This document shows, one piece after another, positions 35,691-39,238 of a stretch of DNA of 64,000 bases. The notes below the pieces were generated by a model that was given only the letters and a program-made list of their open reading frames with translations, had not been told where the DNA came from and did not search any database. The position numbers were made by a program, and so were the translations under genes. Position 1 is the stretch's first letter, and each line of letters opens with the position of its first letter. The stretch lies in assembly GCA_003211695.1 (NCBI GenBank), contig QCSA01000004.1, positions 1 through 64,000 of the forward strand, read 5' to 3'. Source of the stretch: Pelagibacteraceae bacterium AG-464-P07. GTDB taxonomy: Bacteria > Pseudomonadota > Alphaproteobacteria > Pelagibacterales > Pelagibacteraceae.

Positions 35691-36152
35691 CTATTTTACT
35701 TCAAATATTGCATCGACTTCAACTGCAGCACCAAGAGGTAGTGAGTTTGTACTAATTGCTACTCTTGCGTGTTTACCATTATCTCCAAAAACTGCAGAAA
35801 TAATCTCGGAAGCAGCATTAATAACTTTGGGTTGATCAGTAAATTCATTTGTTGAATTTACATACCCAGTCAATTTAATACAATTTGTGATGTTTTCTAA
35901 ATTTTCGTAGCAAGCTTTTTTAGCTTGAGCAATTATATTAATTGCACATAGCTTTGCTGCAGCTTGACCTTGCTCAATAGATAATTCTTTTCCCAATTTT
36001 CCCTTTGTTATTTTTTCATTAGCATCAATTGATATTTGGCCGGATATAAACAATAAATTTGTAGTTTTCTTGTATGCCACATATGCGCCCACTGGATTTG
36101 GTGCTTTTGGAATTTCTATATTTAACTTTATTAAATTTTCTTCTACCGACAT
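35691..36152 (-). CDS. RidA/YjgF-family protein (reactive enamine/imine deaminase)
   Basis: 153 residues, longer than archetypal RidA (about 128). Conserved features are VGAYVAYKKTTNLLFISGQI, the central AKLCAINIIAQAKKACYENL helix and the C-terminal KHARVAISTNSLPLGAAVEV. The Arg in this last block aligns with the substrate-carboxylate Arg of active RidA. The length and the GK...KGKLGKEL segment suggest the longer RidA subfamily rather than RidA proper. It probably hydrolyses reactive 2-aminoacrylate-type intermediates. Confidence 0.85.
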   Translation of the reverse strand: MSVEENLIKLNIEIPKAPNPVGAYVAYKKTTNLLFISGQISIDANEKITKGKLGKELSIEQGQAAAKLCAINIIAQAKKACYENLENITNCIKLTGYVNSTNEFTDQPKVINAASEIISAVFGDNGKHARVAISTNSLPLGAAVEVDAIFEVK

Positions 36153-36181: not shown

Positions 36182-36415
36182 CTACTTCTTCAAATCAACA
36201 AGTGATTCTGCATTATAAAATTTTCCTAAGGCATTAGGAGTTCCATCTTTTTTTTTAAATAATTTTTTAATACCACACCCAAGAGCAGCGGGGGATATTT
36301 TATGTTTGTCAATGCAATCATGACCTATAAGATCTGCCAAGGTTTCTTTTTCTTCTGCGTTACTTACATTAGCAAGAAGTAACATTGTAGTTATTACTAA
36401 AATTATACTTTTCAT
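36182..36415 (-). CDS. Small secreted protein with C-X12-C, tandem copy 2
   Basis: 77 residues. A signal peptide (about residues 1-20, MKSIILVITTMLLLANVSNA) is followed by a short charged mature part. DC-X12-C and an IKK segment follow, with a C-terminal ESLVDLKK. The neighbouring gene at 36429 has the same length, the same C-X12-C spacing, a shared Ala-Ala before the second Cys, and a similar hydrophobic-x-DLK ending. I infer paralogues. Probably periplasmic with one disulfide; function unknown. 13 nt separate the two genes. Confidence 0.75.
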   Translation of the reverse strand: MKSIILVITTMLLLANVSNAEEKETLADLIGHDCIDKHKISPAALGCGIKKLFKKKDGTPNALGKFYNAESLVDLKK

Positions 36416-36428
36416 AAGTTATATTCCT

Positions 36429-36662
36429 TTATTTTAATTCACTTAATGTTTTTACTTCTCCAAGTTTTATCAGAAATGATTTTTTACCAGATTTTTTATC
36501 TCCTTTAATTTTTTTGTCAGCAACTTTACCAACAGATTTAATTTTACACATTGCTGCTTGCATTGAAAACTTTCTTACGTTTTCGCAGTCAATTACCTCT
36601 TTAGAGTAAGCATTAGTTATAGTAAAAAATATTAATGTTAAGAATATTATAAATGTTCTCAT
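36429..36662 (-). CDS. Small secreted protein with C-X12-C, tandem copy 1
   Basis: 77 residues. The signal peptide is about residues 1-20 (MRTFIIFLTLIFFTITNAYS), followed by IDC-X12-C-KIKSVGK, a Lys/Gly-rich stretch and a VKTLSELK ending. Similar in architecture to the gene directly downstream. It starts 8 nt after topA and is likely cotranscribed with it. Not recognised as a known family. The two cysteines suggest a periplasmic disulfide. Confidence 0.75.
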   Translation of the reverse strand: MRTFIIFLTLIFFTITNAYSKEVIDCENVRKFSMQAAMCKIKSVGKVADKKIKGDKKSGKKSFLIKLGEVKTLSELK

Positions 36663-36670
36663 ATATATAG

Positions 36671-39238
36671 TTACCTTTTTTTTCTTTTGTTTTTATCATA
36701 TTCTTTTCTTTTCTCAATCAATATTAACGCTTCTTCCATTGTAATTTCCATAGGGTCTTTTTCTTCAGGAATAGTCGCATTAAGGGATTTGTGTTTTATA
36801 TAAGGGCCAAATTTACCCTTCATGACTTTTACAAGCTTTTTATCATCAGGATGTTCACCTAAATGTTTTATTTCAGAAGAAGATATTCGTCCTGGTTTAG
36901 CTTCAGCAATCATTGTAACAGCTCTATTCAATCCAATTGTAAAAATATCTTCAGATGTTTCTATTCTTGCTGACTTATTTTCACATTTTAAATAAGGACC
37001 GAATCTTCCAGAGTTTAGAGTAATGTCTTTACCCATATCTGGATGTTGTCCAATTACTTTTGGTAAAGAGCATAAAAAATTTGCTCTTTGCAAGTCTATT
37101 GAGTCAATTGAAATACCTTTTGGAATTGAAACATTTTTGAAATTAGTATTATCTTTTTCTTTTCTTTTCTTACTTTTTTTTGTTTTTTTAACTTCTTCAT
37201 CAACAATTTCAGGTATTTTTTCATATTGAATGTATGGACCAAATCTTCCTACTTTTAAGTACATATCATTACCATTTTCATGTTTTCCAATTAATTTTGG
37301 TTCTGCCAATTGTGATTGTTGAGCAGCCTTTGCTTTTGATAAAGGTCTGGTAAATTTACATTCTGGATAATTAGAACAACCAATAAAAGCACCTCCACGG
37401 AAACTGTTTTTCAAGCTTAATTGTCCATTCGCGCAAAGCTTGCATTTTCTATCAATATTACCAACATTATCCCTTTCAAATATTAATGTACCCAGACTAT
37501 CATTTAACAGATCTAAAACTTCTCTTGTTCTTTTTTCCTTAACCTCAGTAACATTTTGATTAAAGTCCTTCCAAAACATCTCTAGAACTTTAATCCATCC
37601 TTCTTTTCCTGAAGTGATTTCGTCTAATTGATTTTCCAATTCAGCAGTAAAATTGTAGTCTACATATTTAGAAAATAGTTTTTCCAAAAAAGCTGTTATT
37701 AATTTTCCTCTATCTGTAGGATGAAATCTTTTATTTAAGGTTTCAACATAACCTCTAGTAGATATAACAGAAATAATGCTTGCATATGTAGAAGGTCTTC
37801 CAATACCTAATTCTTCAAGTTTTTTTACTAAACTCGCTTCCGAATATCTAGGTGGTGGTTGTGTAAAATGCTGCTCATCTATAAGACTCTCGATATTAAC
37901 AGGTCCATTTGACATTTTAGGCAAAACGCTTTCGCCGTCCTCTTTTTTAGCATCTTTATAAACTTTTAAATAACCATCAAATTTAATTACCGATCCAGTA
38001 GTTTTTAAAATAGTTTCTTTGTTATCAGATGTAATTGTAATTGTGTTTCTATCAAATTGCGCTGATTGTATTTGAGAGGATAAAGCTCTACTCCAAATTA
38101 GATCATACAATTTATGTTGTTCTGGACTTAAATATTTTTTTACTTTGTCAGGAGATTTATCAATATCAGTAGGTCGTATTGCTTCGTGAGCTTCCTGAGC
38201 ATTCTTTGCTTTTTTACCAGAATAATTTAAAGGGTCTTTAGGAAGGTATTCATTTCCATATGTATTTTTAATAAAATTTCTAAAATTAGATACAGCTTCT
38301 TCTGATATGTTTGTTCCGTCAGTTCTCATATATGTGATTAAGCCTATAGTTTCTCCATCAATTTCAATTCCTTGATAAAGTTTTTGAGCAATTTGCATTG
38401 TTCTCGATGCACCTAAACCTAGTCTTCCAGAGGAAACTTGCTGAAGTGTTGACGTAGTAAAAGGACCTGCAGGGTTTCTACTTACAATTTTTGACGATAT
38501 ATCAGAAATACTAAATTTCATTTTTTTAATTCGTTCAGCAGCATCATTAATATCCTCTTTATTTTTGAAAGAGAATTTTTCAACTTTTTTTCCCTCTAGT
38601 TGTGAAATATTAGATGTTACTATGTTATTGCTATTGTCTTTAAAGTTTACTTTTAAAGACCAAAACTCCTTAGGGTTAAATAATTCAATCTCATGCTCTC
38701 TTTCAGTAATTAATTTCAAAGCAACAGATTGGACACGTCCAGCAGATTTGGATCCAGGTAGCTTAGTCCACAAAATAGGAGAAATATTGAATCCAACTAA
38801 ATAGTCTAATGCTCTTCTAGCCATGTAAGCATCGACTAGAAGTGGTTCAATATCTCTAGGGTTTTCTATACCTTTTGTAACAGCTTTTTTTGTAATTTCA
38901 TTGAAAACAACTCTTTCTATCTTCCTATCCTTTAATAATTTTTTTTGATCTAATACTTCTTTAACATGCCAGGCAATAGCCTCACCTTCACGATCAGGGT
39001 CCGTGGCTAAAATGATTTTATTTGAATCAGCGGCGGTATCTGTGATTTCTTTTAAATATTTTTTTGAGAAAGCATCAATTTCCCACAACATTTGAAAGTT
39101 ATTTTCAGGATCAACAGAACCATTTTTTGATGGTAGATCCCGAATATGTCCATAGCTAGCTAAAACTTTATATTCCTTGCCTAGATATTTATTTATAGTC
39201 TTTGCTTTAGCTGGACTTTCTACAATTACTAGGTTCAT
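36671..39238 (-). CDS. topA: DNA topoisomerase I
   Basis: 855 residues. The TOPRIM domain starts NLVIVESPAKAKTINKYLG, with DPDREGEAIAWH carrying the acidic metal site. The catalytic Tyr is in GLITYMRTDGTNIS. One classical four-Cys zinc ribbon follows (CKLCANGQL...GCSNYPEC), then three C-terminal FGPY repeats (GPYIQYEK, GPYLKCEN, GPYIKHKS) that replace extra zinc ribbons as in other alphaproteobacteria. Relaxes negative supercoils. In alphaproteobacteria dprA often precedes it; here plsY does, 85 bp away. Confidence 0.97.
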   Translation of the reverse strand: MNLVIVESPAKAKTINKYLGKEYKVLASYGHIRDLPSKNGSVDPENNFQMLWEIDAFSKKYLKEITDTAADSNKIILATDPDREGEAIAWHVKEVLDQKKLLKDRKIERVVFNEITKKAVTKGIENPRDIEPLLVDAYMARRALDYLVGFNISPILWTKLPGSKSAGRVQSVALKLITEREHEIELFNPKEFWSLKVNFKDNSNNIVTSNISQLEGKKVEKFSFKNKEDINDAAERIKKMKFSISDISSKIVSRNPAGPFTTSTLQQVSSGRLGLGASRTMQIAQKLYQGIEIDGETIGLITYMRTDGTNISEEAVSNFRNFIKNTYGNEYLPKDPLNYSGKKAKNAQEAHEAIRPTDIDKSPDKVKKYLSPEQHKLYDLIWSRALSSQIQSAQFDRNTITITSDNKETILKTTGSVIKFDGYLKVYKDAKKEDGESVLPKMSNGPVNIESLIDEQHFTQPPPRYSEASLVKKLEELGIGRPSTYASIISVISTRGYVETLNKRFHPTDRGKLITAFLEKLFSKYVDYNFTAELENQLDEITSGKEGWIKVLEMFWKDFNQNVTEVKEKRTREVLDLLNDSLGTLIFERDNVGNIDRKCKLCANGQLSLKNSFRGGAFIGCSNYPECKFTRPLSKAKAAQQSQLAEPKLIGKHENGNDMYLKVGRFGPYIQYEKIPEIVDEEVKKTKKSKKRKEKDNTNFKNVSIPKGISIDSIDLQRANFLCSLPKVIGQHPDMGKDITLNSGRFGPYLKCENKSARIETSEDIFTIGLNRAVTMIAEAKPGRISSSEIKHLGEHPDDKKLVKVMKGKFGPYIKHKSLNATIPEEKDPMEITMEEALILIEKRKEYDKNKRKKR

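Follow-up and report, generated by a model that had tools for sequence, protein, structure and literature searches.

Tandem genes for small exported two-cysteine proteins belong to a variable locus family at the topA-ridA junction of SAR11 bacteria

Results

A tandem pair of small exported-type proteins between topA and ridA

The window, i.e., the whole 64-kb stretch of DNA analysed here, carries on its minus strand a row of genes in the order topA, ORF B, ORF A, and ridA (Table 1). The start of ORF B lies 9 bp beyond the topA stop codon, a spacer of 13 bp separates B from A, with AAAGGA upstream of the ORF A ATG, and ridA follows ORF A after 29 bp. Two adjacent 77-residue ORFs with signal peptides had been predicted at this place, and both were confirmed there. 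They are the only ORFs in the window, read in all six frames, to pass a crude filter for ATG-started ORFs of 45 to 140 aa with a basic N-terminus, a hydrophobic stretch, and two or more Cys beyond residue 20. The original prediction had placed the pair where other alphaproteobacteria often have rnr or other topA neighbours; topA indeed adjoins, and the neighbour that matters is ridA.

Table 1. Genes of the topA-ridA row in the window.
Feature	Position	Strand	Description
topA, DNA topoisomerase I	36671..39238	-	Upstream gene of the row; named by Pfam
ORF B	36429..36662	-	77 aa, exported-type, C26/C39 (C-X12-C), Lys-rich tail
ORF A	36182..36415	-	77 aa, exported-type, C34/C47 (C-X12-C), tandem paralogue of B
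ridA (YjgF/RidA family)	35691..36152	-	Downstream gene; named by Pfam

The N-termini of both proteins combine Lys/Arg with hydrophobic residues in the n-h-c manner of signal peptides (assessed by eye) and lead to a signal-peptidase-I-like cleavage site, SNA in A and AYS in B. Neither has the lipobox Cys at the cleavage site that would mark a bacterial lipoprotein; the first Cys lies about 6 residues beyond this site in B and about 14 residues beyond it in A. Both have a Ser at the seventh residue of the Cys spacer; the second Cys is followed by I-K at +2/+3, and the C-terminal end has the form [ST]-L-x-[DE]-L-K, so that the C-X12-C spacing, the IK motif, and the L-x-[DE]-L-K ends named in the prediction are present in A and B alike. 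The Ala-Ala said to precede the second Cys in both did not survive comparison: its position differs by one residue between the two proteins, and orthologues do not retain it, the B protein of G020 having PKYLIC.

A and B are diverged tandem duplicates, as had been proposed. We compared their mature parts alone, because signal peptides are alike by composition, using profiles of four orthologues each from residue 21 on. These aligned with hhalign over 47 columns with a score of 33.8 (probability 90.6, E 1.3e-6), well above background, given that the maximum of 40 column shuffles was 14.6; full-length BLASTP of A against B, signal peptide included, gave E 9e-6. The B profile aligned with the single-copy genes of a related genus (g4) at a score of 33.6 (maximum of 39 shuffles 12.3), and the A profile did so at 19.5 (shuffled maximum 14.3), with a low hhalign probability (1-12%). 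Since B aligns with the g4 genes better than A does, B is probably the older of the two copies and A the derived one; we infer this order rather than reconstruct it, because proteins this short would not give a trustworthy tree.

Both are protein genes under purifying selection, with Nei-Gojobori dN/dS of 0.21-0.47 for A (six pairs) and 0.23-0.62 for B (five of six pairs, the sixth being saturated in dS); six close pairs of single-copy relatives gave 0.14-0.26. For ridA, the three comparisons involving the window gave 0.10-0.14, and A and B evolve several times faster than this neighbour. The pair is present in all four genomes of the window's genus (g1) with a readable junction, and orthologues of A and B stand in the same order in G020, G038, and G006. 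In G029, the fifth genome of the genus (65% complete), neither topA nor the pair was seen.

The topA-ridA junction is variable across the SAR11 family

Beyond what had been predicted, A and B belong to a wider locus family at the topA-ridA junction. Among the 147 genomes that make up the window's taxonomic family, 123 yielded a topA tail, with 126 places in all, of which 110 were read. Locus L054 was added outside this set for the count of small ORFs below; L069 and L130, both among the 110, were unreadable, which leaves 108 junctions. More than half of these are empty (58), with topA and ridA overlapping or standing at most 37 bp apart; 42 hold one small exported ORF, four hold two, and four hold pdxA (Table 2). 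Conservation of the pair across SAR11, which had been proposed as a check, holds within the window's genus, which has all four two-gene junctions, and elsewhere in the SAR11 family gives way to one gene or none.

Table 2. Junctions by genus (genus g7 is outside the count).
Genus	Two ORFs	One ORF	Empty	pdxA
g1	4	0	0	
g2	0	13	6	
g3	0	9	3	
g4	0	10	16	
g5	0	9	15	4
g14	0	1	0	
g6, g9, g10, g12, g13			all	

The gap ORFs (51 from 47 loci, L054 included) are small signal-peptide ORFs on the strand of topA and ridA and lie between these genes. At 35 of the 47 loci the first of them starts inside the topA stop codon (ATGA, offset -3), which suggests that the small gene is translationally coupled to topA. 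The same ATGA overlap occurs at four g5 loci (L025, L027, L030, and L031) where a complete pdxA of 335 aa lies between topA and ridA, its identity resting on Pfam (PF04166) for L025, one of the four; the junction therefore accepts other genes too.

On a tree of 107 RidA sequences, presence and absence of the small gene require at least 16 changes, although this tree is weak, with 28 of its 104 inner branches starred. Well-supported neighbours on it differ in presence, namely, G003/G096 and G026/G073 (both starred) and G133/G136 (support 93), and the junctions of such differing close pairs are in clean states with no visible remnant. Clean states would be expected if alleles were replaced by way of the conserved flanks, and we infer from them that the gene may be switched on and off between relatives by this route. 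One genome, G125, has three different topA tails in 110 contigs and is therefore probably a mixed bin.

An invariant cysteine pair in otherwise divergent proteins

Relatives with conserved cysteines, which the original prediction had called for, were found: two Cys columns are invariant in all 50 aligned gap ORFs (the set of 51 minus L078, whose start had been shortened). Counted beyond residue 20, the number of Cys is two in 47 ORFs, four in three, and one in L078 with its shortened start. C-X12-C, the spacing of both A and B, is also the commonest among the relatives; it is the mode and not the rule, because the first pair is spaced from X6 to X18 in the 50 ORFs (X12 in 20, X11 in 13, X14 in 5, X16 in 5, X6 in 3, X18 in 2, X10 in 1, and X17 in 1). 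Little else is conserved, and the mean column identity is 21%. A doubled form with four Cys is confined to three g3 genomes (L010, L012, and L084), whose gap proteins of 102-119 aa repeat the Cys unit as CSQYSTKT..RC and C.EYS.KT..KC.

Sequence links between the genus groups are weaker than those between A, B, and g4. None of 40 shuffles scored as high as B against g2 or g4 against g2, but the hhalign probabilities were 1% and 12%; shuffles scored as high in 15 of 40 cases for A against g5, 2 of 40 for B against g5, 1 of 40 for g4 against g5, and 2 of 40 for g4 against the 4-Cys g3 form. Because of these weaker links, the putative membership of g5, g2, and the 4-Cys g3 form rests chiefly on position and the Cys pair.

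Distribution of the family and database searches

Searching the window's genome with a profile of 25 members (A1) returned A and B as the sole family matches; the next matches began at E 0.008, the best being a 171-aa protein that by eye is pentapeptide-repeat-like. Of 297 genomes of the order, 88 matched at E<=0.001; a single one of them lies outside the window's family, and it matched via the N-terminus of a 733-aa protein. Some of the weakest rows are chance matches of the same kind. At the level of the class, two of 289 genomes matched at E<=1e-4, both from the same SAR11 family, so that among these genomes no relative was found in Alphaproteobacteria outside it.

In line with the prediction of an undescribed exported family, A and B matched no Pfam family at E<=1 and no NCBIfam family, where one chance-level row had E 0.16. 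Searches of Pfam, NCBIfam, and PHROGs with the pair and 50 relatives gave at most scattered sub-cutoff rows, and a profile search of PDB sequences found no relative (best E 0.51). Viral contigs held no relative of A or B as single-protein queries, which reach close relatives only, and neither did 50,697 phage records searched with B. Titles and the openings of abstracts in the literature contained no account of a small-gene locus at topA-ridA.

Away from topA, the sole real-looking match of P0002 is a moved or second-site copy in G082 (L056:1501-1704, minus strand), which lies between miaA-like and ilvB-like genes (named by eye) in a genome whose own topA-ridA junction is empty. In the search of the order, two candidate ORFs of 74-75 aa, in G297 and G331, also look family-like, although a profile built from mature parts gives theirs only 6.3 and 4.6 bits. 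The remaining matches examined away from topA are to long proteins, chiefly by way of the signal peptide.

In G003, a pair of neighbouring genes (L192:421-2840, minus strand) encodes exported proteins, each about 400 aa long, that share an SxxK-like GKS motif and have no Pfam match at E<=0.01. One of them has a two-Cys stretch after its signal peptide with a faint likeness to the family head; such a possible head on a 416-aa SxxK-type hydrolase of this genome scored 10.4 bits (shuffled maximum 9.5). We dropped the idea of a family head fused to a hydrolase, because this stretch is not shared by the other hydrolases with readable N-termini (10 of 22 loci, two of them the same G003 ORF); the L216 hydrolase has a Cys pair with a different spacing.

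Structure models, charge, and tails

AlphaFold2 models built from six sequences are of low confidence for both A (pLDDT 60.5, pTM 0.31) and B (pLDDT 54.4, pTM 0.25). The model of A has a break before S41 and a helix at 42-52 carrying C47, and that of B has a helix at 34-46. Structure prediction had been suggested as a check for a shared disulfide fold; what can be read from such poor models is a predicted helix running in both proteins from about the conserved Ser through the second Cys, which would fit a disulfide clamp at the beginning of the helix. The window's genome encodes DsbB (G000:C5, E 5e-28), as do 26 of the 31 genomes searched, the window's own included, and a periplasmic disulfide is therefore possible in this host.

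The mature parts are strongly basic, with a mean net charge of +10.0 (range +2 to +23, 51 ORFs) and a Lys fraction of 0.26. Of the tails, taken from the last Cys on, the hydrophobic moment exceeds that of shuffles (p<=0.05) in 14 of 48 and lacks significance in the other 34. Hydrophobicity is autocorrelated at 11 residues (p<=0.05) in 14 of the 32 tails that are long enough, B of the window among them, several of the 14 being near-copies from genus g2; the signal is missing in the B orthologues L128 and L129 of G020 and G038 (p 0.86 and 0.96).

Discussion

A possible envelope role and its alternatives

The reading that we tentatively prefer, while holding it to be somewhat doubtful, is that A and B are tandem paralogues of SAR11-specific small envelope proteins expressed from the topA-ridA row. 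They would be exported by Sec and relieved of their signal peptides, after which the two cysteines (C-X12-C here, 6-18 apart in relatives) would be oxidised via DsbA/DsbB. The disulfide would hold a short turn against the beginning of a helix, with Ser or Ser-Pro as its cap and the second Cys one to two turns on, and the very basic tail would rest on an anionic envelope surface, either a membrane leaflet or the wall, where the protein may stabilise the envelope or act as a spacer. The tails of several lineages would form amphipathic helices of 11-residue repeats. Against this reading stands the consideration that the high Lys content is partly a product of the AT-rich genome. Furthermore, the small gene is dispensable, since 58 of 108 junctions are empty, and a general structural role would therefore not be essential.

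The frequency of empty junctions, together with weak conservation apart from the cysteines (21% mean column identity) and the lack of a fixed partner domain, would also be expected of a nearly neutral exported peptide with a weak and replaceable role, e.g., as a low-level periplasmic thiol or charge buffer, that drifts and is often lost in streamlining. We regard this as rather unlikely, because all 50 aligned rows keep both cysteines, every measurable pair is under purifying selection, and the gene has been kept beside topA over six genera of streamlined genomes.

Fast divergence relative to ridA and an on/off pattern at one junction, with at least 16 changes and close pairs that differ (G003/G096, G133/G136, and G026/G073), would be explained if the proteins were phage-exclusion or competition factors that block pelagiphage entry or a competitor toxin under frequency-dependent selection, and the variable tails and the doubled 4-Cys form of three g3 genomes would fit as well. 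This explanation is unlikely in view of dN/dS values that never exceed 1 in the pairs tested, the lack of relatives of B in the phage records and of A and B in viral contigs, the lack of any visible immunity-like partner, and a setting in a housekeeping row instead of an island or defence-gene neighbourhood.

The envelope reading has a bolder form, which we consider quite unlikely: a modular class of envelope proteins found in SAR11 only, with a constant disulfide-clamped head and a swappable membrane-docking tail of 11-residue repeats, coupled to topA and switched between relatives by precise allele replacement at topA-ridA. Any likeness of such tails to synuclein or LEA proteins would be one of function and not of descent.

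HdeA and HdeB are periplasmic acid chaperones that are small, helical, and exported, have one disulfide, and form a diverged tandem pair; a periplasmic chaperone or inhibitor working like them would agree in size, export, cysteine number, and tandem arrangement but is improbable, given the far shorter Cys spacing of A and B, the lack of a match to the Pfam family even at E<=1 or of a sequence relative among solved structures (best E 0.51), and a marine host that presumably has no acid niche and meets no acid stress.

Comparison with known systems

Small exported proteins restricted to one lineage are commonplace. Unusual here are the one fixed junction, the repeated on/off states, the variation of the tails, and the single genus with a tandem pair, in a family that is new to the curated libraries, as neither Pfam nor NCBIfam has a name for it. 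SAR11 bacteria dominate the ocean surface and have streamlined genomes, and a fast-changing exported gene that is kept, lost, or doubled at a fixed junction next to a housekeeping gene is the mark of lineage-specific selection on an envelope trait. Close relatives with and without it at topA-ridA provide a clean natural contrast for phenotypes related to the envelope, phages, or stress.

The LprI/DUF1311 lysozyme-inhibitor-like secreted proteins have a short helical C-x(about 11)-C motif after the signal peptide; A and B have no match to them in Pfam (E<=1), and they are absent from the 25 families listed for 50 relatives. The Lys-rich, 11-residue-periodic tails of some relatives resemble LEA_4 (PF02987) and Apolipoprotein A1/A4/E (PF01442), two families of which, to our knowledge, neither is exported with a two-Cys head and neither is matched by A or B. 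The likeness is seen in the g4 relative L106, which has clear 11-residue repeats and matches both families below their curated cut-offs, LEA_4 at E 1.4e-7 (31.7 bits, cut-off 51.1) and Apolipoprotein at E 2.7e-6 (27.6 bits, cut-off 90).
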